From assembly GCF_040546685.1 (NCBI RefSeq), contig NZ_JBEPOH010000001.1:2108001-2172000 (forward strand): a DNA stretch of 64,000 bases, written 5' to 3'. Under the pieces are notes generated by a model. The model was not told where the DNA came from. It saw only the letters and a program-made list of their open reading frames with translations, and ran no database searches. The position numbers and the translations under genes are program-made. This document shows, in pieces, positions 14,430-25,592 of this stretch (position 1 is its first letter; each line of letters opens with the position of its first letter). Source of the stretch: Variovorax sp. OAS795 (GTDB taxonomy: Bacteria > Pseudomonadota > Gammaproteobacteria > Burkholderiales > Burkholderiaceae_C).

Positions 14430-15305
14430 TCAGCCGTTCAGCGTTTGTGCATGGTGGGCGATGTGGTCCGCCATGAAGCTCTGGACGAAGTAGTAGCCGT
14501 GGTCGTAGCTCGCGTGCCTGCGCAGCGTGAGCGGCTGGCCGGCGGCAAAGCAGGCGGCCTCGAAGGCTTCCGGGTACAGCTGCTCGGCAAGGAATTTGTC
14601 GCCCAGGCCCTGGTCGATCAGGATGCCTTGCGGGTAGGGCGCGGCGGTTTGCGATTTCATGAGCGCGCTGGCGTCGTGCGCAAGCCATTGCGCGCGGTCG
14701 CCCCCCGGCTCGCCCAGGTAGCCGGCGAACGCCTTCTCGCCCCACGGGCACTGTGTGGGCGCGCAGATGGGGGCAAAGGCCGACAGCGACCTGAAGCGCC
14801 CCGGGTGCCGCATCGCGAGCGTGAGCGCGCCATGGCCGCCCATCGAATGGCCGCAGATGCCCAGCCGCTGGTCGTCGATGGCGAAGTGCCGCGCGGCGAA
14901 GGGCAGCAGCTCATGCACGATCCAGCTTTCCATGCGCCAGTGGGCGGACCACGGGGCTTCGGTGGCGTCGAGATAGAAGCCCGCGCCAATGCCGAAGTCG
15001 TAGCTGGCGGTGGCGCCGGGCAGGCTTTCGACGGCGCTGCCGCGCGGGCTGGTGTCGGGCGCGATCAGCGCGAGGCCCAGGCTGGCGGCCATGCGCTGGG
15101 CGCCGGCCTTCACTGCGAAGGTTTCCTCGTTGCAGGTCAGCCCCGCAAGGTAGAGCAGGGCGGGCACGCGGGCGTTGGCAGCCTGCGGCGGCAGGTACAC
15201 CGAGAAGCGCATCGGCAGGCCGATTTCGTGCGAGGCGTGCTCGTAGAAGCCTTGCACGCCGCCGAAGGCGTGGTGCTCGGAAAGGGTCTTGAGAAAGTCG
15301 GTCAT
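14430..15305 (-). CDS. fghA: S-formylglutathione hydrolase
   Basis: The 291-residue esterase D-type enzyme hydrolyses S-formylglutathione to formate and glutathione, the second step of glutathione-dependent formaldehyde oxidation. The ATG at 15305 gives MTDFLKTLSEHHAFGGVQGF. Diagnostic features are the LYLAGLTCNEETF motif, the nucleophile elbow CGHSMGGHGAL, the acid in IDQGLGDKFLAEQ and the histidine in SYDHGYYF. The start overlaps the preceding hydrolase stop by four bases (ATGA) and frmA lies one gene upstream, so the two pathway enzymes are made together. Confidence 0.96.
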   Translation of the reverse strand: MTDFLKTLSEHHAFGGVQGFYEHASHEIGLPMRFSVYLPPQAANARVPALLYLAGLTCNEETFAVKAGAQRMAASLGLALIAPDTSPRGSAVESLPGATASYDFGIGAGFYLDATEAPWSAHWRMESWIVHELLPFAARHFAIDDQRLGICGHSMGGHGALTLAMRHPGRFRSLSAFAPICAPTQCPWGEKAFAGYLGEPGGDRAQWLAHDASALMKSQTAAPYPQGILIDQGLGDKFLAEQLYPEAFEAACFAAGQPLTLRRHASYDHGYYFVQSFMADHIAHHAQTLNG

Positions 15306-16228
15306 CGTGCGGTCTTGTCGTTGTGAAGCGCGGGAACCAGTTCGAGCACGGCGTCGGCAAAGATGCGCGGTGCCTCCTGCGGCATGTTGTGGCCGACGCC
15401 GGGCACCAGCCGGTGCGAGCGCGGCCCGCTGAAGCGGTGCGCGTGGGCCGATGCGTCGGCGGGCGGCCGCACGCCGTCGTCGAGGCCGTCGAATGTGATG
15501 GCGGGCACCGATATCGCAGGCTGCGCGGCCAGGCGGCGCTCGATGCCGGCATACGCCGGGTCGCCGGCCACGAGCCCGAAGCGGTGGCGGTACGAGTGGA
15601 TCACCACCTCGACGAAATCGGGATGGTCGAAGGCCGCCGCGCTGCGCTCGAAGGTGGCGTCGTCGAACTTCCAGGTCGGCGACCAGAGCTGCCACAGCAG
15701 GCGGGTGAGCGCCTTGCGGTCTTTCGCCAGCCCGGCACGGCCGCGCTCGCTGTGGAAGTAGTACTGGTACCAGAGGCTGTGCTCGTTGGCGGGCGTGTCG
15801 GGCACCATCGCGTGGGCGATGTCCTGGATGTTGTAGCTGTTGAACGAGACCAGCCCCGCACAACGCTCGGGCCACAGCGCCGCCACGACGCAGGCAGCGC
15901 GGCCGCCCCAGTCGTAGCCTGCGAGCACCGCGCGCGGAATGGCCAGCGCATCGAGCAGCGCGAGCAGGTCGGCGCCGAGTGCGGCCTGTTCACCCGAGCG
16001 CGGCGTGGCTTCGCGGAGGAAGCGCGTGGCGCCGTAGCCGCGCAGGCAAGGCACGATGACGCGGCAGCCCTGGCCGGCGAGCATCGGCGCCACCTCGGCG
16101 TAGGCGTGGATGTCGTAGGGGAAGCCGTGCATCAGCACAACGGGCGGGCCGTCAGAGGGGCCAGACTCGTGGTAGGCGATCTCGAGAACGCCCGCCTCGA
16201 TCTGGCGCAAGGGCTCCATGCGGTTCAT
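15302..16228 (-). CDS. Alpha/beta hydrolase with Asp nucleophile (epoxide hydrolase / haloacid dehalogenase-like fold group)
   Basis: A 308-residue alpha/beta hydrolase encoded between frmA and fghA. The start is MNRMEPLRQIEAG at 16228; a second in-frame ATG at 16219 is possible. VVLMHGFPYDIHAYAEV supplies the oxyanion region. The nucleophile elbow is AGYDWGGRAACV, so the nucleophile is Asp rather than Ser, as in epoxide hydrolases and haloalkane or haloacetate dehalogenases. The catalytic His is in PGVGHNMPQEAP. The lid region (SLWYQYYFHSERGRAGL) has the paired tyrosines seen in epoxide-hydrolase-like enzymes. It is not a known member of the formaldehyde pathway; its operon position suggests a substrate handled by the upstream oxygenase or GST. 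Confidence 0.85.
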   Translation of the reverse strand: MNRMEPLRQIEAGVLEIAYHESGPSDGPPVVLMHGFPYDIHAYAEVAPMLAGQGCRVIVPCLRGYGATRFLREATPRSGEQAALGADLLALLDALAIPRAVLAGYDWGGRAACVVAALWPERCAGLVSFNSYNIQDIAHAMVPDTPANEHSLWYQYYFHSERGRAGLAKDRKALTRLLWQLWSPTWKFDDATFERSAAAFDHPDFVEVVIHSYRHRFGLVAGDPAYAGIERRLAAQPAISVPAITFDGLDDGVRPPADASAHAHRFSGPRSHRLVPGVGHNMPQEAPRIFADAVLELVPALHNDKTAR

Positions 16229-16248: not shown

Positions 16249-17355
<1,107 letters not shown>

Positions 17356-17405: not shown

Positions 17406-18044
17406 TCATGCGGGGCTGGCGGCAAAGATACCCGACATTCCGACAAAGCCGGGCAGGTGGCGAAAGTCCCAGGCCCAGCTTCGCAAGGCCGGGTATGCGT
17501 CGAGCGGTATTCCGCCTTCGCCGGCCAGCGCCACGTAGGGAAAGCAGGCGAGATCGGCCACGGTGGCGTGCGGCCCGGCCAGCCACTGGAAGCCGTCGCT
17601 GGCGCGTTCGGCCAGGTGATCGTCGAGCAGTCGAAAGACCTCATGCGCACCGCGGCGGCAGGCCTGGACATCAATGGCCTCGTAGCCGAAAACATCGTGC
17701 AGCCGCGCCGCCGAGGCCGTGCGGGTGATCTCTTCGGCCGTGGCAAGCCACATCGCGACCTGGCCGCGCAGTGGCGGATCGGCGGGGTACCAGCGGGCCT
17801 GGGTGTCGTATTTGCCCGCGAGGTACACGAGGATGGCCTGCGCATCGCGCAGCACGAAGCCGTCGTCGTCGATCACCGGCAGCTGGCCGAGCGGATTGAC
17901 CTGCGCCAGGAACGCGGCCGACTTGTGCTCCCGCCCCGGATGGAAGTCGACCGGCACGCTCTGGTAGGCGAGGTCGAGCCAGGCGAGCATCTGCCGCACC
18001 TTGAAGCAGTTGCCCGACAGCGCGTAGTCGTAGAGCCGGATCAT
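17406..18044 (-). CDS. Glutathione S-transferase family protein
   Basis: A 212-residue GST. The start at 18044 (MIRLYDYALSGNCFKVRQML) overlaps the oxygenase catalytic-subunit stop by four bases. The N-terminal thioredoxin-like domain has LSGNCFK near the active-site position, NPLGQLPVIDDDGFVLRDAQAILVYL with the cis-proline VPVI-type turn, then a helical domain with LAGPHATVADLACFPYVALAG, the N-capping box of GSTs. It sits between a Rieske-type oxygenase and the glutathione-dependent formaldehyde dehydrogenase, so a glutathione adduct of an oxygenase product is a plausible substrate. Confidence 0.9.
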   Translation of the reverse strand: MIRLYDYALSGNCFKVRQMLAWLDLAYQSVPVDFHPGREHKSAAFLAQVNPLGQLPVIDDDGFVLRDAQAILVYLAGKYDTQARWYPADPPLRGQVAMWLATAEEITRTASAARLHDVFGYEAIDVQACRRGAHEVFRLLDDHLAERASDGFQWLAGPHATVADLACFPYVALAGEGGIPLDAYPALRSWAWDFRHLPGFVGMSGIFAASPA

Positions 18045-18904
18045 GCCGCCGGCCTCACGCCGAAGCGCATGCCACGTTCGCGCAGCCAGCGCCGGTAGGT
18101 GACCGAAGAGGTGTCGCCGCGCGTCGGCGTCTCGGCGCGGCCTTCGAGCGGCATGCGCTTGAAGGCATGGTTCTCCAGGATCGGCTTGTCCTGCCCGAAG
18201 ATCGCCTGCTGGAACGCAATGAGCTCGGCATCGGTCGACGTGTCGTCGTAGCAGGCCAGGAGCGTGTGGGCGATCACATGCTCGTCGTCCAGCGGTTGCA
18301 GGAACAGGCCGATGGCGTCGAGTGCGCCGTCGCGCGAGCTCGACTTGTAGAGCATGGCGGTGAGCGGCTGCATCACCCGGTACTTGTAGATCACCTCGCT
18401 GCCGCTGCCATGGGCGGCCGAGGCGCGCGGTTGCCAGAAGCGGCAATCGGTGGCCCAGATCTCGCGCGTGGCGGGATCGACCTGCACCTGGTAGCGGGCC
18501 ACCTCGGTGTGCGGCACCTGGCCCAGAATGCCGCCGTGCACGAAGGGGAAGTGCGCCATGTCGAGAAAGTTCTCGATCACGCGCAGGCGCGACACGGCCA
18601 CGCCGATGCCGCCGCAATCGACGGTGCGGCGCCCGGCTTCGCCGTATTCCGGAAAGTCGAACAGCGGCCTGGCCGGCTTGCCGCCGGGGCAGACCCAGAG
18701 ATAGCCGTGGCGCGACTGGACCGCCAGAACCTGCGAGCCCAGGCGGCATTGCGGCTTTCCGGACGCATCGCGCCACAGGTGAAGCGTTTCGCCGAGCAGC
18801 CGCACGGGGCGGGGCGCTGTGTCGCTGGTGCCGGCCAATGCGGCGGCGGGGCCGGCGACCAGCCAGTCGTCGAGCATGTTGGGGTCGTCGGTGTTGAAGG
18901 GCAT
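18041..18904 (-). CDS. Rieske-type oxygenase catalytic protein lacking the Rieske cluster ligands
   Basis: A 287-residue protein resembling the alpha subunit of VanA-like aromatic demethylases. It has the opening LDDWLVAGPAAAL and the mononuclear iron site ENFLDMAHFPFVH (His118-x4-His123 after Asn112/Asp115). The QDKPILENHAFKRMPLEGR stretch could supply the third ligand (Asp239 or Glu244), and the ending is SVTYRRWLRERG. The region that should hold CxH and CxxH runs from LLGETLHLWRDASGKPQC directly into HGYLWVCPGG, so the cluster-binding subdomain is missing. A separate Rieske protein is encoded 18 bases upstream. I infer that the two proteins act together as a split oxygenase. The start MPFNTDDPNM lies at 18904. 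Confidence 0.85.
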   Translation of the reverse strand: MPFNTDDPNMLDDWLVAGPAAALAGTSDTAPRPVRLLGETLHLWRDASGKPQCRLGSQVLAVQSRHGYLWVCPGGKPARPLFDFPEYGEAGRRTVDCGGIGVAVSRLRVIENFLDMAHFPFVHGGILGQVPHTEVARYQVQVDPATREIWATDCRFWQPRASAAHGSGSEVIYKYRVMQPLTAMLYKSSSRDGALDAIGLFLQPLDDEHVIAHTLLACYDDTSTDAELIAFQQAIFGQDKPILENHAFKRMPLEGRAETPTRGDTSSVTYRRWLRERGMRFGVRPAA

Positions 18905-18922
18905 GAAGTTCTTTTTTTTCCG

Positions 18923-19615
18923 TCAGGCTGACGGCTGCGATGCCTCGATCTCGCCGCGCAGCACGCGCGCGGCGATGTGCAGCGCCTTCATCGCTTCGGA
19001 GCCCAGCGCGGCCGCGGTCCAGAGGTGGATGAAAGCCAGCCGGGGTTGCGCATCGAGCACCAGCGCCGCGGTGTCCACCTGCCCGAGCGCGCCGCGGAGG
19101 GCGGGAGACGACGCATCCGGCGCGAAACCCCGGCTCGCGAGCGCGTCGCGCACGCCGGCTGCATCGGCGCGCACCGAGAGCGTGCGGCAGAAGGTCCAGC
19201 CCGGCGGCACGGCATCGTCGAGCGCCGGAGCGGATGGCGGCGCCGCATCCGCAAGATTGACCCACAGCATGCCGGCCGCCTCGATGGCGCTGAAGGTCTT
19301 CGCGCAGACGGCGGGCGGGGTCATGTCGGGGTGCGCAGGAATGCGCATGCACTGGCCGCTGCCCGCGGCGTACTGCCAGCCGTGGTACGCACAGGCGAGG
19401 CGGTTTTCCACCACGCGCCCCAGCGTGAGGCGCACGCTGCGGTGCGGGCAGCGGTTTTCCCACGCCTGCACCGTGCCGTCGGCCGAGCGCCAGAGCGCGA
19501 TTTCCTGGCCTTGCGCAAAGCCGGCGGCGATGTTGGCGCCGGGGCGCAGCCCGGCCGAGCGTGCCACCGGATGCCAGGTCGAAATGCTGCTGTCTGTGCT
19601 GCTGTCTGCGCTCAT
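18923..19615 (-). CDS. Rieske [2Fe-2S] protein, probable partner of the split oxygenase
   Basis: A 230-residue protein starting at 19615. Residues about 14-105 form a Rieske domain: WHPVARSAGLRPG, then RCPHRSVRLTLG and ACAYHGWQYAAG, giving cluster ligands Cys56, His58, Cys75 and His78. It continues with KTFSAIEAAGMLWVNLAD as in oxygenase alpha subunits. After that there is no mononuclear-iron motif of the D-x2-H-x4-H type; the last 100 residues (FCRTLSVRADAAGVRDALASRGF and onward) are unassigned. It is first in the leftward run and divergent from aroQ (74 bases). It is longer than a simple ferredoxin and probably docks to the catalytic protein next door. Confidence 0.85.
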   Translation of the reverse strand: MSADSSTDSSISTWHPVARSAGLRPGANIAAGFAQGQEIALWRSADGTVQAWENRCPHRSVRLTLGRVVENRLACAYHGWQYAAGSGQCMRIPAHPDMTPPAVCAKTFSAIEAAGMLWVNLADAAPPSAPALDDAVPPGWTFCRTLSVRADAAGVRDALASRGFAPDASSPALRGALGQVDTAALVLDAQPRLAFIHLWTAAALGSEAMKALHIAARVLRGEIEASQPSA

Positions 19616-20127: not shown

Positions 20128-20164
20128 GGGCTCGACGCCCCTGCGAACACCCGCCATCAGCGGG

Positions 20165-21704
20165 TCAGTCGTTCTGCTTGGGAGCGGCGGCCTTCCAGCT
20201 GCGGGTGATATGGCCGTGCGCATCGACGCTTTCCAGATGAACGTCGAAGCCCCACAGCCGCGCCACGTGCTTCAGCACTTCTTCCGCATCGTCGTGCAGC
20301 GGCAGGTTGTTGCGCTGCGTGTGGCGCAGCGTCAAGGCCCGATCGCCGCGCATGTTGACATTCCACACCTGGATGTCGGGCTCCCTGCTGCCGATGTCGT
20401 ACTGGCGTGACAGCGATTCTCTCAGCGCGTGATAGCCGCTGTCGTCGTGAATGGCGGACACCTCGAGCTCGGGTTCGCTCTGGTGGTCGCGGATCGCGAA
20501 CAGCCTGAAATCGCGCATGGTCTTGGGGCTCAGGAACTGGCCCACAAAGCTCTCGTCCTTGAAGTTGCGCATCGCGTAGTCGAGCGTCTTGACCCAGTCG
20601 GTGCCGGCGAAATCGGGGAACCAGCGCCGGTCTTCCTCGGTCGGGTTTTCGCACACGCGCCGCAGCTCGGTGAACATCGAGAAGCCGAGCGCGTAGGGGT
20701 TGATGCCACTGTAGGCACGGTGTCCGACCGGCGGCTGGAAGATCACGCCGGTGTGCGAACTGAGCCATTCCATCATGAAGCCGTCGGCAAGCTGGCCGCG
20801 GTCGTACATGGTGTTGAGCAGGGTGTAGTGCCAGAACGTGGCCCAGCCCTCGTTCATGACCTGCGTCTGGCGCTGCGGATAGAAATACTGCGCGATCTTG
20901 CGCACGATGCGCACCACCTCGCGCTGCCAGGGTTCGAGCAGCGCGGCATTCTTCTCGAAGAAATAGAGCAGGTTCTCCTGCGGTTCGGAAGGAAAGCGGC
21001 GGGACGCGTCGGACTTCCGTGGCTTGCTCGCTCTTGCGGGGCAGGGTGCGCCAGAGGTCATTGACCTGCTGCTGCATGTGGCGCTCGCGTTCGGCGCGCT
21101 GTGCGCCTTCGCGCGCGAGCGACCGCTTCTGCGGCCGGCGGTAGCGGTCGACGCCGTAGTTCATCAGCGCATGGCAGGAGTCGAGCAGCTGCTCGACGGC
21201 GTCGACGCCGTGGCGTTCCTCGCATTCGGCAATGTAGTGGCGCGCGTACACCAGGTAGTCGATGATGGACGAGGCATCGGTCCACATCCGGAACAGGTAG
21301 TTGCCCTTGAAGAAGCTGTTGTGGCCGTAGGCCGCATGCGCGATCACCAGGGCCTGCATGGCCATGGTGTTTTCTTCCATCAGGTAGGCAATGCAGGGGT
21401 CGGAGTTGATGACGATCTCGTAGGCCAGTCCCATGTGGCCGCGGCGGTAGTTCTTCTCGGTGGCAATGAACTGCTTGCCGTACGACCAATGCCTGTAGAT
21501 CATGGGCATGCCGACGCTCGCATAGGCGTCCATCATCTGCTCGGCGGTGATCACCTCGAGCTGGTTCGGATACACATCGAGCCCGAAGCCCCTGGCCGTC
21601 TTCGCGATCTCGGTGTGGTAGGTCTCGATGAGGTCGAAGGTCCAGTCCGAAGGGCTCGGCAGGCGCTCCAGGCGTTCCAGCGGAGGGTGGTCGAAGGTCG
21701 TCAT
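20165..21704 (-). pseudogene. SpoVR-family protein, interrupted by a frameshift
   Basis: The start at 21704 (MTTFDHPPLERLERLPSPSDW) opens a typical SpoVR N-terminal half: FGLDVYPNQLEVITAEQMMDAY, MIYRHWSYGKQF, AHAAYGHNSFFKGNYLF. After NDLWRTLPRKSEQATEVRR the frame runs into unrelated sequence, while the remaining half (ENLLYFFEKNAALLEPWQRE, MNEGWATFWHYTLL, ALGFSMFTELRR, through NNLPLHDDAEE) is found in another leftward frame ending at 20165. The junction lies near 20985-21015. The 1540-base span is one base over a multiple of three, which fits a one-base insertion or two-base deletion. It may be a sequencing error or a real lesion. Otherwise it is the third gene of the prkA-yeaH-spoVR cluster, coupled by an ATGA overlap. 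Confidence 0.85.
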
Positions 21705-22993
21705 GCGGGCACCCCTTCCTTCTTGAAGAGGTCGCGGAACACGGGGTAGATGTCCCGCGCGTCCGACACCTTGCGCATCGCGAAGTTGGGCTGTATGCCC
21801 TGCAGCTGCGCATATTCCTGCCAGAGGTTCTGCTCGGTTTCGGCGACCTGCACGTACGCGTAGTAGCGCACCACGGGCAGGATGTGGTCGACCAGCAGTT
21901 CGCGGCAGCGTCCGCTGTCCTGGTGCCAGTTGTCGCCGTCGCTGGCCTGCGCGCCGTACACGTTCCATTCGCCGCTCGGGTAGCGTGCCTTGATGATCTC
22001 GTCCATGAGCACCAGCGCGCTCGACACCACGGTGCCCCCGGTTTCCGTGGCGTGGAAGAATTCTTCCTCGGTCACTTCCTGCGCCTGCGTATGGTGGCGC
22101 AGGAACACGAGGTCGATGCGCTCGTAGTGGCGCGTGAGGAACATGTACAGCAGCATGAAGAAGCGCTTGGCCATGTCCTTGCGCGCCTCGTCCATCGAAC
22201 CCGACACGTCCATGAGGCAGAACATCACGGCCTTGGCGCTGGGCACCGGGGTCTTCACGCGGTTGCGGTAGCGCAGGTCGATGGGATCGATGTAGGGCAC
22301 GTGCCGCATGGTGCGGCGCATCTCTTCGATCCGCTCCTCGGTTTCGCGGATCTCGTTCTTGATGAGTCCTTGCGTGGCCTGCGGATGCGACTGCAGGTGC
22401 AGCAGGTGGGCTTCGAGGCGCTTGAGTTCCTTGCGCGGCTCGCCGCCGAGCGCAATTCGCCGGGCCAGGGCACCGCGCATCGAGCGCACCACGTGCAGGT
22501 TGTTGGGAGAGCCGTCGCTCGTGAAACCAGCCCGGTGGCTCTTCCATTCGGGCACCTCGGCGATCTGCGTGCGGATGAGATGCGGCAGCGCCAGGTCGTC
22601 GAAGAAGACGCGCATGAATTCCTCGCGCGTGAGGCGAAAGACGAAGTCGTCCTCGCCCTCGCCGCCGTCCCCGGCCTCGCCGCTGCCCGAGCCGCCGCCG
22701 GCCTGCCCCTCGGGCCGCGCGATGCGGTCGCCCTTGAGGTACTCCTGGTTGCCCGGGTGCACGTACTCGCGATCGCCGCCGCGCGCATGGCCGAACACGG
22801 GCTCGGACACGTCGTGGCGCGGCAGGGTGACATCTTCGCCTTGCTCGAGTTCGCGGATGTTGCGCCCGCTGACCGCACGCCGCACGGCCTCCTGGATCTG
22901 CCCCTTGTAGCGCCGGAGAAAGCGCTCGCGGTTGCCAATGGACTTGTTCTTGCCCGAAAGCCGGCGGTCGATGATCTGCTGCAGGATGGCCAC
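21701..22993 (-). CDS. yeaH: YeaH/YhbH-family protein (DUF444, UPF0229)
   Basis: A 430-residue protein beginning MAILQQIIDRRLSGKNKSIGNRERFLRRYK, the standard start of this family. A glycine-rich linker (EGQAGGGSGSGEAGDGGEG) is followed by a von Willebrand A-like domain: AVMFCLMDVSGSMDEARKDMAKRFF has the DxSxS metal site, and ETGGTVVSSALVLMDEII the later threonine region. It works with the PrkA/YeaG kinase and SpoVR in stress and stationary-phase responses; the molecular role is not established. It is 63 bases downstream of prkA and overlaps spoVR by four bases. Confidence 0.94.
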   Translation of the reverse strand: MAILQQIIDRRLSGKNKSIGNRERFLRRYKGQIQEAVRRAVSGRNIRELEQGEDVTLPRHDVSEPVFGHARGGDREYVHPGNQEYLKGDRIARPEGQAGGGSGSGEAGDGGEGEDDFVFRLTREEFMRVFFDDLALPHLIRTQIAEVPEWKSHRAGFTSDGSPNNLHVVRSMRGALARRIALGGEPRKELKRLEAHLLHLQSHPQATQGLIKNEIRETEERIEEMRRTMRHVPYIDPIDLRYRNRVKTPVPSAKAVMFCLMDVSGSMDEARKDMAKRFFMLLYMFLTRHYERIDLVFLRHHTQAQEVTEEEFFHATETGGTVVSSALVLMDEIIKARYPSGEWNVYGAQASDGDNWHQDSGRCRELLVDHILPVVRYYAYVQVAETEQNLWQEYAQLQGIQPNFAMRKVSDARDIYPVFRDLFKKEGVPA

Positions 22994-23056
22994 GATGATG
23001 TCAAAGCTCCTTGCAAAAAGGGGGCGAAGCCTTCGCCTCGCCGCTATGAACTGTCG

Positions 23057-24979
23057 CTACGAACTCTTGCGCACCCGCAGGTACCACTCGCAGAGCAGAC
23101 GCACCTGCTTGGCCGTATAGCCCTTCTCGACCATGCGGGTGACGAAATCTTCGTGCTTCTTCTGCTCGTCGGCGCTGCTCTTGGTGTTGAAGCTGATCAC
23201 CGGCAGGAGTTCCTCGGTGTTGGAGAACATCTTCTTCTCGATGACGGCCCGCAGCTTCTCGTAGCTGGTCCATGCGGGGTTGCGCCCGGCATTGCCGGCA
23301 CGCGCACGCAGCACGAAGTTGACGATCTCGTTGCGGAAGTCCTTCGGATTGCCGATGCCCGCGGGCCGCTCGATCTTCTCGAGTTCGGCGTTGAGCGAGG
23401 CGCGGTCGAACACCTCGCCGGTGTCTACGTCGCGGAACTCCTGGTCCTGGATCCAGTAGTCGGCGTAGGTGACGTAGCGGTCGAAGATGTTCTGGCCGTA
23501 TTCGCTGTAGCTCTCCAGGTAGGCGGTCTGGATCTCCTTGCCGATGAACTCGGCATAGCGCGGCGCCAGCAGCTCCTTGATGTAGCTGATGTATTTCTGC
23601 TCGGTTTCCGGCGGAAACTGCTCGCGCTCGATCTGCTGCTCGAGCACGTACATCAGGTGCACCGGGTTGGCCGCCACCTCGGAGCTGTCGAAGTTGAACA
23701 CCTTGGAGATGATCTTGAAGGCGAAGCGCGTGGAGACGCCGCTCATGCCTTCGTCGACCCCGGCGTAGTCACGGTACTCCTGGATCGACTTGGCCTTGGG
23801 GTCGGTGTCCTTGAGGTTCTCGCCGTCGTAGACCTGCATCTTGCTGTAGATGCTGGAGTTCTCGGGTTCCTTCAGGCGCGTGAGCACCGACAGCTGGGCC
23901 ATCATGCGCAGCGTGCCGGGCGCGCAGGGCGCCTTGGCCAGCGATGAGTTGCGCACCAGCTTCTCGTAGATCTTGATTTCTTCCGAGGCGCGCAGGCAGT
24001 AGGGCACCTTGACGATGTAGATCCGGTCGAGGAAAGCCTCGTTGTTCTTGTTGTTGCGGAACGCCTTCCATTCGCTCTCGTTGCTGTGCGCCAGCACGAT
24101 GCCGTCGAACGGAATGGCGCCGAAGCCTTCGGTGCCCTTGAAGTTGCCTTCCTGGGTGGCCGTGAGCAGCGGGTGCAGCACCTTGATGGGTGCCTTGAAC
24201 ATTTCCACGAATTCCAGCAGGCCCTGGTTGGCCAGGCACAGGCCACCCGAGTAGGCATAGGCGTCGGGATCGTCCTGCGCGTAGGTCTCTAGCTTGCGGA
24301 TGTCGATCTTGCCCACCAGCGAGGAGATGTCCTGGTTGTTCTCGTCGCCGGGCTCGGTCTTGGCGACCGCGATCTGCCGCAGCACCGACGGATAGCGCTT
24401 GACCACCTTGAACTGGCGAATGTCGCCGCCGTACTCCTCGAGCCGCTTGACGGCCCAAGGGGAAAGAATGCGGTTCAGGTAACGGCGGGGGATGCCGTAT
24501 TCCTTCTCGAGGATCTCGCCGTCCTCGACGGCGTCGAACAGGCCCAGAGGCGTTTCGTTGACCGGCGAGCCCTGGATCGCATAGAACGGCACGTGCTCCA
24601 TGAGCTGCTTCAGGCGCTCGGCGATCGAGCTCTTGCCGCCGCCGACGGGTCCGAGCAGGTAGAGGATCTGCTTTTTCTCCTCGAGTCCCTGCGCGGCATG
24701 CCTGAAGTACGACACCACCTGCTCGATGGCGTCCTCCATGCCGTAGAACTCCTTGAACGCCGGGTAGATCTTGATGACCTTGTTCGCGAAGATCCGCGAC
24801 AGCCGGGAATCGTTGCGCGTGTCGACCAGCTCGGGTTCGCCGATGGCCTTGAGCATCCGCTCGGAAGCAGTGGCATACGCTGTGGGATCGCGTTTGCAGA
24901 TATCCAGGTAGTCCTGCAGCGACAGGACCTCCTCGCGGGTGCGCTCGTAACGGGCGGCAAAGTTGCTGATCACATCCAT
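23057..24979 (-). CDS. prkA: PrkA/YeaG-family serine protein kinase
   Basis: The 640-residue protein has an AAA-type N-terminal domain with P-loop LGPVGGGKSSIAERL and sensor region FDGIVLAHSNESEW, and a C-terminal kinase-like part. I place the start at the ATG at 24979 because GGAGG lies seven bases before it; a GTG two codons earlier would have almost no spacing. The opening MDVISNFAARYERTREEVLSLQDYL is typical. It heads the prkA-yeaH-spoVR operon, widely conserved and linked to stationary phase and nitrogen stress in enterobacteria. The upstream 600-base AT-richer region probably holds its promoter. Confidence 0.95.
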   Translation of the reverse strand: MDVISNFAARYERTREEVLSLQDYLDICKRDPTAYATASERMLKAIGEPELVDTRNDSRLSRIFANKVIKIYPAFKEFYGMEDAIEQVVSYFRHAAQGLEEKKQILYLLGPVGGGKSSIAERLKQLMEHVPFYAIQGSPVNETPLGLFDAVEDGEILEKEYGIPRRYLNRILSPWAVKRLEEYGGDIRQFKVVKRYPSVLRQIAVAKTEPGDENNQDISSLVGKIDIRKLETYAQDDPDAYAYSGGLCLANQGLLEFVEMFKAPIKVLHPLLTATQEGNFKGTEGFGAIPFDGIVLAHSNESEWKAFRNNKNNEAFLDRIYIVKVPYCLRASEEIKIYEKLVRNSSLAKAPCAPGTLRMMAQLSVLTRLKEPENSSIYSKMQVYDGENLKDTDPKAKSIQEYRDYAGVDEGMSGVSTRFAFKIISKVFNFDSSEVAANPVHLMYVLEQQIEREQFPPETEQKYISYIKELLAPRYAEFIGKEIQTAYLESYSEYGQNIFDRYVTYADYWIQDQEFRDVDTGEVFDRASLNAELEKIERPAGIGNPKDFRNEIVNFVLRARAGNAGRNPAWTSYEKLRAVIEKKMFSNTEELLPVISFNTKSSADEQKKHEDFVTRMVEKGYTAKQVRLLCEWYLRVRKSS

Positions 24980-25592
24980 GGTCACGCCTCCATCAGGTCT
25001 GCGGGTTCAGTGGCCCCGAAAGCCTGCAGCCAAATGCGTCGCAACTTTTTAAAGGTGTGCCCGCCCATGGCTGCAAGCCGTGGAAAACTCCCTTAATCAC
25101 ATCTTCACAAACAGCATAAAGCAAAGAGTGCACCCGGAAAATTCTTTGTTAAATGAGAACCACAGTGCCGAGTAAAGTTTCCGAGGAAAACCCGCAGCAT
25201 TTGGCAATTCCAGCTAAATTTCAGGGTTCGGCAACCGAACTTCGCGCGACCCTTCCGTCCAGTGAAAATACCTATGGCGATCGGCATATGCAGCCATTGC
25301 ATCTTTTCCGGCGAAAGCACCTCCTAAAGAGCCTCATGCGGCCCAAAACGGTTACATACCAATAACGCGCCGCATCCTGTTTAGGTTTATTGCTCAATCG
25401 AAAAATATATAAAAGCAATCCCCGCGCCATCTTTTGATGGGCATGTCGCGCATGTGGGCGTGGGAAAGCGCGCCAAGGCGTGGTCAGCGTGTTTCCGGGG
25501 GGAAGGAACTGCCTTGGTGCGTGGCACCGAACAAGGTCGGTGGGCACCGTTCGCGTGCGCGAGGGTGGGCAGTGCGGGCGGGGAGGGAAGCG
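24980..25592. other. Gene-free intergenic region between prkA and the dnaJ terminator
   Basis: About 610 bases with clearly lower GC than the flanks from 25090 to 25430. Frames of 60-90 codons exist on both strands but have no recognisable protein character, so I call none. A small hairpin, GTTCGG-CAA-CCGAAC, lies at 25226-25240. The prkA ribosome site (GGAGG) lies at the left edge. I could not find a convincing sigma-54 or sigma-70 promoter by eye. A regulatory RNA or long leader for prkA is possible but unsupported. Confidence 0.6.

Follow-up and report, generated by a model that had tools for sequence, protein, structure and literature searches.

A gene pair of Variovorax sp. OAS795 that probably encodes separate Rieske and catalytic subunits of one NdmC-lineage oxygenase

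Background

Electron transfer between subunits is a defining step of Rieske oxygenases. In VanA and DdmC both centres, the Rieske cluster and the mononuclear iron, are carried by one chain, and the Rieske ferredoxins of multi-component oxygenases serve oxygenases that are complete in their own cofactors. In this work we have analyzed two adjacent genes between whose products the two sites are divided: a Rieske protein (RSK) and a catalytic protein devoid of the cluster motif (CAT). The pair lies in a stretch of 64,000 nucleotides from the genome of the soil bacterium Variovorax sp. OAS795 (contig NZ_JBEPOH010000001.1, positions 2,108,001 to 2,172,000 of the forward strand), referred to as the window, within which positions are numbered. 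Public records that annotate genes of this sort use broad names such as 'Rieske (2Fe-2S) protein' and 'aromatic ring-hydroxylating dioxygenase subunit alpha', which hide the possibility that both make up one enzyme.

The closest described system is NdmCDE of P. putida CBB5, reportedly the subject of work by Summers et al. in 2013. According to the consulted sections of PMC4408171 (PMC, PubMed Central), this caffeine-degrading strain has in NdmC a non-heme iron monooxygenase that lacks a Rieske cluster and in NdmD a reductase that carries an additional one, while NdmE, a glutathione S-transferase (GST)-like protein, is needed for solubility and activity. In the same sections the three form the N7-demethylase NdmCDE, whose gene cluster also contains frmA and frmB, NdmD is said to serve NdmA and NdmB besides joining NdmC, and homologous ndmCDE clusters of unknown function are listed for 18 further organisms (PMC4408171).

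The preliminary description of the window, made from its letters alone, proposed a split Rieske oxygenase and knew of no characterised enzyme of such a kind. The former claim stands: conservation, co-occurrence, trees with single clades, models of each chain and natural fusions all lend strong support to a gene pair for a split Rieske oxygenase. The latter has to be given up in view of NdmCDE and of the two-chain chlorophyllide a oxygenase of Micromonas. One chain of the Micromonas enzyme reportedly bears the Rieske centre and the other the iron, as Kunugi is said to have found in 2013. The cited passages of PMC9615114 describe the Micromonas pusilla enzyme as two polypeptide chains, suggested to form a heterodimer or a trimer of dimers, which are active with a VanB reductase. 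Both systems are two-chain; the Micromonas enzyme is eukaryotic, acts on another substrate and, in those passages, is not mentioned with a GST-like partner.

The known kind is thus the split enzyme NdmCDE, and what appears to be new here is a Rieske subunit that is a protein of its own, with the reductase presumably encoded elsewhere. Among the papers listed in searches of open-licence PMC literature, which excludes the primary NdmCDE paper, none was found to describe a stand-alone-Rieske variant of NdmCDE. Inter-subunit electron transfer is hard to study with cluster and iron on one chain; on separately expressible proteins each site could be removed, titrated or swapped alone.

Results

Division of the sites between RSK and CAT

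Both open reading frames (ORFs) are on the minus strand and in the same frame, with 18 bases and a single stop between them (Table 1), in agreement with the coordinates and spacing given in the preliminary description. It had also placed all four Rieske ligands on the 230-residue RSK, without an iron motif, and the iron site with VanA-like flanks on the 287-residue CAT, and the family models bear out both assignments. The Pfam Rieske model PF00355 matches RSK at residues 13-97 (71.6 bits, cut-off 20.3) and the VanA_C model PF19112 matches CAT at residues 107-276 (72.2 bits, cut-off 23.5); at an expectation value (E) of up to 1, no Pfam Rieske model matches CAT and no Pfam catalytic model matches RSK. 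Residues C56, H58, C75 and H78 of RSK are unchanged in all 32 aligned rows, the window sequence counted, and N112, D115, H118, H123 and D239 of CAT in 18/18 rows of one alignment and 40/40 of another. H118 and H123 are presumably the iron ligands, a role taken from the family, and D115 we take to be the residue that in such enzymes bridges to a Rieske histidine on the adjacent subunit. Two acidic residues, Asp239 and Glu244, had been put forward as further ligand candidates; the Asp of SxtDIOX, which we assume to be an iron ligand, aligns with D239 and not with E244, so that only the former is retained.

The claim that CAT skips the CxH...CxxH stretch is confirmed by homology. In hhalign, CAT 12-55 aligns with RSK 12-53, the N-terminal half of the Rieske domain, with a probability of 97% and E of 2.5e-11; the 41 columns have 27% identity, and of 20 controls with shuffled columns the best reached 0.058. 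SxtDIOX 104-333 is the aligned counterpart of CAT 57-283. Because CAT 12-55 corresponds to RSK 12-53 and CAT from residue 57 onwards to SxtDIOX from residue 104 onwards, about 50 cluster-bearing residues are, judged from these alignments, missing from CAT and the base of the Rieske domain is kept. Neither protein has the combination of cluster and mononuclear iron on one chain that marks a single-chain alpha subunit; the cluster ligands, iron triad and bridging Asp of a heteromeric Rieske oxygenase are found in the co-inherited pair.

Table 1 Features of the RSK/CAT locus in the window
Feature	Positions	Strand	Remarks
RSK, stand-alone Rieske subunit, 230 residues	18923..19615	-	Rieske domain ~11-135 and small C-terminal helix-grip-like domain 136-230
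RSK cluster ligand stretch C56-x-H58 ... C75-x-x-H78	19382..19450	-	invariant in 32/32 rows
RSK residues 136-230, probable catalytic-domain remnant, shrunken and without iron site	18926..19210	-	AlphaFold2, Foldseek, weak hhalign
CAT, Rieske-less catalytic subunit, NdmC-like, 287 residues	18041..18904	-	
CAT residues 12-55, remnant of the N-terminal half of the Rieske domain, without cluster loops	18740..18871	-	hhalign to RSK
CAT H118 and H123, two His iron ligands, after conserved N112-x-x-D115	18536..18553	-	invariant in 40/40 rows
CAT D239, probable third iron ligand	18188..18190	-	invariant in 40/40 rows; aligned with Asp of SxtDIOX
GST-like protein, NdmE-like, 212 residues	17406..18044	-	start overlaps CAT stop (ATGA); 53% identical to P. 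caffeinilytica NdmE-like protein
FrmA, S-(hydroxymethyl)glutathione dehydrogenase	16249..17355	-	TIGR02818, 631.5 bits (cut-off 543.95)
Alpha/beta hydrolase, in operon	15302..16228	-	PF00561
FrmB/FghA, S-formylglutathione hydrolase	14430..15305	-	TIGR02821, 406.5 bits (cut-off 281.7)

Both chains gave confident AlphaFold2 models, with a mean predicted local distance difference test score (pLDDT) of 92.0 and a predicted template modelling score (pTM) of 0.91 for CAT, and 92.2 and 0.87 for RSK. Their best PDB matches, by sequence and by fold, are SxtT and GxtA/SxtDIOX (PDB 6wn3, 6wnc), in which a single chain bears both cluster and iron; the fold alignments show 20-26% identity and are no argument for a common substrate. 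The VanA_C catalytic domain is also common to CAT, VanAB and dicamba monooxygenase. In Foldseek, CAT aligns with SxtT and GxtA chains with a template modelling (TM) score by query of 0.79-0.87, and RSK aligns along the length of intact oxygenases, beyond the Rieske domain (SxtT/GxtA chains, 273-300 columns when gaps are counted; TM by query 0.68-0.76, root mean square deviation (rmsd) 4.3-7.5). The C-terminal domain of the RSK model consists of a strand, a helix, strands and a long last helix (pLDDT block means 92-98), in an order like that of the catalytic helix-grip and much reduced. When this C-terminus was compared with CAT in hhalign, E was 0.0027 over 25 columns; all 20 shuffles scored worse (0.14 or more) and the reversed profile gave 0.72. 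RSK 136-230 is probably a shrunken remnant of a catalytic domain, for which the sequence comparison is only suggestive; what is left of the lost domain is thus apparently still present in both chains. Because each chain seems to keep both folds, one working and one shrunken, the pair probably arose by duplication and reciprocal loss of active sites.

Comparison with an ndm-type cluster

A P. caffeinilytica plasmid carries an ndm-type cluster in the order NdmC, NdmD, NdmE, FrmA, FghA (the record names are generic and the ndm names were assigned here). The cluster contains a reductase annotated as PDR/VanB-type; its reductase matches the solved NdmD domain (135 bits). Next to the cluster lie two oxygenases, of which one matches solved NdmB with 689 bits and the other NdmA with 649 bits. 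CAT shares 40% identity with the NdmC-like protein and falls into the same clade, RSK is 39% identical over 151 residues to the NdmD N-terminus, the Rieske domains lying in one clade, and the GST-like protein has the identity to its NdmE-like counterpart given in Table 1. The predicted operon of the window, RSK-CAT-GST-FrmA-hydrolase-FrmB on one strand, thus has in common with NdmCDE an iron-triad catalytic chain without cluster, a GST-like gene in the operon, and frmA and frmB in the cluster. It differs in that the Rieske domain is a separate protein instead of the N-terminus of a reductase and in that the operon lacks a reductase gene. Gene set and gene order are nearly alike, save that the Rieske gene precedes CAT here and follows NdmC in the plasmid cluster. 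As to linked ndmA or ndmB genes, there is no further match to CAT or RSK within the window, the nearest Rieske match lying 443 bases past its right end.

The overlapping GST-like gene and the formaldehyde genes after it had gone unmentioned in the preliminary description. FrmA and FrmB, frequent companions of demethylases, dispose of formaldehyde in the form of its adduct with glutathione. Both proteins encoded here pass the NCBIfam equivalog cut-offs, and the GST-like gene and formaldehyde genes point to a demethylase; for the alpha/beta hydrolase between them no NCBIfam model scored above its cut-off.

Co-inheritance and selection

Looking for co-occurrence of both genes across genomes had been suggested earlier, and the genes indeed travel together. 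Among 101 genomes of the genus, CAT (E ≤ 1e-60) was found in 54 and RSK (E ≤ 1e-40) in 50; both were present in 50, CAT alone in four, RSK alone in none and neither in 47. The gap between the RSK and CAT matches is 16-44 bases in 49 of the 50 genomes, the exception being G675 (354), in which only part of RSK was matched. At the level of the order (300 genomes, own included, at most nine candidates scored per genome), a Rieske match (E ≤ 1e-30) reaching the C-terminal domain occurred in three genomes, and a catalytic match (E ≤ 1e-60) starting at the N-terminus in the same three; a further 18 genomes were positive for the Rieske query and 10 for the catalytic one, and there the matches listed cover nothing beyond parts common with intact oxygenases.

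Both genes are under purifying selection. The median ratio of non-synonymous to synonymous substitution rates (dN/dS) against 29 Variovorax relatives is 0.23 for CAT, 0.32 for RSK and 0.21 for GST; for comparison, it is 0.07 for FrmA (27 relatives), 0.15 for the hydrolase and 0.18 for FrmB (26 each).

Arrangement of the modules among relatives

Genome contigs were searched with CAT, and the best 80 loci of at least 555 confirmed relatives were used. CAT is without the cluster motif in 80/80 of them. A stand-alone RSK is present in the stretch around CAT in 48 of these loci, seven of which also have a separate reductase; eight have an NdmD-type fusion (L072 assigned by hand), and in four RSK is cut by the stretch end. 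RSK was then sought at genome level for 19 of the 24 loci without a whole RSK nearby (L071, L080, L082, L091 and L098 left out), and a split-type RSK was found in all 19 genomes, with a best E of 2.3e-56 or lower. The best match reaches position 193 or beyond (of 231) in 18 of them; in G688 it stops at 164, and a second match (E 2.2e-55) reaches 228.

Two further loci, not among the 80 of that search, have a stand-alone RSK next to a fusion of CAT with a reductase: L148 and L137, the latter a 2.5 Mb plasmid of V. paradoxus. Hence three states of the modules are seen: all separate (L058, L147), Rieske-reductase fusion (NdmD type) and catalytic-reductase fusion (L137, L148). Fusions in both directions are evidence that the parts work together. 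The three states are natural constructs for structure work, of which NdmCDE is one variant within a wider class.

In 12 of the 19 genomes, which had been picked for a CAT without a whole RSK nearby, Rieske-less CATs (two; four in G688) outnumber split RSKs (one; two in G688, one of them partial), and in G691 and G701 RSK sits between two CATs. In such relatives one Rieske subunit may thus transfer electrons to several catalytic chains, which would be interchangeable. NdmD, which in the sections of PMC4408171 referred to above serves NdmA and NdmB and joins NdmC, offers a parallel to an RSK shared by several CATs. The window genome has one RSK and one CAT.

Larger clusters were also seen. In Paracoccus and kin (L078, L087, L088, L096, L109) each cluster has two each of Rieske-less CATs, small Rieske proteins and GST-like genes, with a single reductase, and the same stretches hold NdmA/NdmB-like intact oxygenases; these clusters are perhaps whole multi-step demethylation pathways with split enzymes. 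On pSymA of S. meliloti 1021 (L135, 7956-12237) two tandem Rieske-less catalytic genes precede one NdmD-type and one GST-like gene. A plasmid of Cupriavidus sp. EM10 (L136) carries an ndm-like cluster with oxygenase, NdmD-like, GST-like and FrmB genes in broken frames, which points to decay or poor assembly.

Phylogeny of the two domains

Trees were built from a chosen subset of loci, with 98 catalytic-domain and 83 Rieske-domain rows. In the catalytic tree 63 Rieske-less domains, the NdmC-like one included, form one clade (support 99/96); the 64th motif-less row, L136_4787, is a fragment from the broken-frame record and is placed with NdmA/NdmB-like rows. In the Rieske tree 43 split domains lie on one side of a branch (100/96). 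A first test, in which all rows labelled split were held as one Rieske clade, was rejected by the approximately unbiased test (p 8.4e-54). Three rows were then relabelled as not split, after the tree had been seen; the sequences bear this out, as L078_11621 and L109_10335 are intact oxygenases of 359 residues and L136_5509 is a 129-residue fragment from a plasmid record with broken frames.

A constraint holding the 12 rows labelled fused together gave p 0.0566 and so passed at the 0.05 level. Two more rows, L136_7860 with a broken frame and L072_5412 with a merged ORF, can be added to the fused ones, and the resulting 14 rows make up one branch within the split group (100/98). The deepest forks of this group have support of 81/59 and 93/93. 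Because stand-alone proteins occur on either side of the first fork, the NdmD fusion seems to have come later, the support of the forks being only moderate. It may be that these proteins represent a modular heteromeric class, in which duplicated subunits lost opposite sites, the stand-alone RSK is ancestral, NdmD is a later fusion and, in many bacteria, one RSK serves several CATs so that the substrate range shifts by swapping catalytic chains; we hold this wider picture tentatively, as a little short of an even call.

Discussion

Proposed enzyme

We are fairly confident that RSK and CAT together make up a single heteromeric Rieske non-heme iron oxygenase belonging to the NdmC lineage, with the electron path, demethylation and GST role outlined here. 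Electrons from NAD(P)H would pass through a VanB/NdmD-like reductase encoded elsewhere in the genome to the [2Fe-2S] cluster of RSK and from there across the subunit interface to the mononuclear iron of CAT (H118, H123, D239, with D115 as the likely bridge). The iron would activate O2 and hydroxylate a methyl group of the substrate, and the hydroxylated product would collapse and release formaldehyde, which FrmA and FrmB of the operon could oxidise to formate. The GST-like protein may hold the complex together or solubilise it, as has been proposed for NdmE. The enzyme is likely a formaldehyde-releasing demethylase with a trans-encoded reductase.

A candidate for the reductase is the match at G000:C1:2742966-2743883, which shares 50-57% identity with the L058, L062 and L064 cluster reductases (next best at most 46%). 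Against the reductases of the Paracoccus-type loci L087, L088 and L096 it also gives the best score, at 42-44% identity, in which it is no better than another reductase of the genome in two of the three cases. It lies next to the frame of another Rieske protein, of 376 residues. On these similarities it is likely the shared electron donor.

Methylated purines are the leading substrate class by analogy with relatives, because the CAT of Rhizobium sp. Root708 (L110) adjoins an 8-oxoguanine deaminase and because the Rieske gene of V. paradoxus L137 comes after one for a BMP-type transporter. In L110 (4572-9557) CAT lies between the deaminase (604 bits, cut-off 532) and another amidohydrolase. Altogether three amidohydrolases surround CAT in L110, with an ABC transporter ATPase upstream, which hints at a rhizobial methylpurine pathway.

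Several observations weigh against the proposed enzyme or parts of it. The operon contains no reductase, and none was found in the stretches of 28/28 Variovorax loci (L032-L057, L063, L065; L039 short upstream, L050 and L052 short downstream). The window genome has 15 matches to the NdmD-type reductase part, which makes the partner a guess among many, and the candidate named above has a clear lead against only three of six cluster reductases. Twenty of the 80 loci are without RSK in the surrounding stretch (genome level examined for part of them). The four CAT-only Variovorax genomes have only a 46-47% CAT relative and no RSK at E ≤ 1e-40; three of these relatives, with open frames of 625-652 residues, are perhaps of the CAT-reductase type. 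Of the six genes with dN/dS values, RSK is under the weakest constraint (0.32), and its C-terminal remnant is matched by hhalign with a probability of only 11% and by Foldseek with rmsd of 4 or more. The GST-like protein may itself have a catalytic role, to judge from the conservation of S10, N12 and C13 (nearly invariant in 11 rows) and P56 (invariant). Biochemistry of this variant was not found in the searches of open-licence PMC literature. No purine transporter, xanthine dehydrogenase or deaminase was found among the 15 window ORFs scanned, and nothing in the window names the substrate.

Alternative explanations

The short gap and shared frame of the two genes in the window, with one stop between them, are what would be seen if a single oxygenase gene had decayed or been split by an assembly error, and also if the in-frame stop were read through to give a single product. 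Decay or misassembly, of which decay had been named at the outset as an outcome that would overturn the split, is hardly credible in view of the gap of 16-44 bases in 49/50 genomes, the purifying selection on both genes and the span of the Rieske-less catalytic clade over three phyla; moreover, CAT carries its own Rieske remnant, so that joining the two would not give an ordinary subunit. Only 5/28 named Variovorax loci have an exact gap divisible by three (L060, with overlapping genes, left out), and because the frame is kept so rarely read-through is no conserved design. In other taxa the two genes are encoded on different strands or separated by kilobases, which, with the frame unshared in 23/28 loci, leaves read-through next to no credence. 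A decayed gene or assembly error was thus rejected on the conserved split, selection and co-occurrence, and stop read-through on unshared frames and the separated genes elsewhere.

RSK could also be a free Rieske ferredoxin for other oxygenases, CAT using another donor or being no oxygenase at all. Like T4moC and the naphthalene dioxygenase ferredoxin, RSK is a small separate Rieske protein; it matches four Rieske ferredoxins (E 8e-4 to 3e-3), although its matches to oxygenases are much stronger, further Rieske proteins are encoded in the genome (15 matches), and in some genomes one RSK occurs with two CATs some kilobases off. However, such ferredoxins are single-domain proteins serving cofactor-complete oxygenases, while RSK has a second, oxygenase-like domain, aligns with intact oxygenase subunits and is co-inherited with a CAT that lacks the cluster motif and conserves the iron triad and Asp115. 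NdmCDE, as far as it is described in the cited sections, is a further argument, and we regard the ferredoxin role as improbable. A less remote alternative, still less likely than not in our view, accepts the split enzyme with a non-purine substrate, acting by O-demethylation or plain hydroxylation, with the formaldehyde genes as mere neighbours. The absence of purine genes among the scanned window ORFs and the alpha/beta hydrolase in the same operon speak for it, as does the fact that the closest solved relatives by sequence and fold are SxtT and GxtA, which are hydroxylases. On the other side, FrmA and FrmB follow the GST gene as in the ndm-type cluster, and in other clades CAT lies beside the 8-oxoguanine deaminase (L110) or near the BMP-type transporter gene (L137), in keeping with a purine demethylase.

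Additional observations

Between the two genes (18905-18922) a run of eight A directly follows the RSK stop ahead of the CAT start, and by eye there is only a poor ribosome-binding site. The Rieske match past the right end of the window belongs to another Rieske protein and is followed by a match to an NdmD/VanB-like reductase (G000:C1:2172443-2175200). Genes for SpoVR, a YhbH/PRK05325-type protein and the PrkA serine kinase (1276 bits) are grouped at 20157-24985 on the minus strand. SpoVR is apparently encoded in two frames: the ORF at 20165-21061 (minus strand) matches only the second half of the profile (208-406 of 407), and SpoVR-like N-terminal sequence was recognized by eye in the overlapping ORF at 20157-22547 (minus strand), which suggests a frameshift or a sequencing error.

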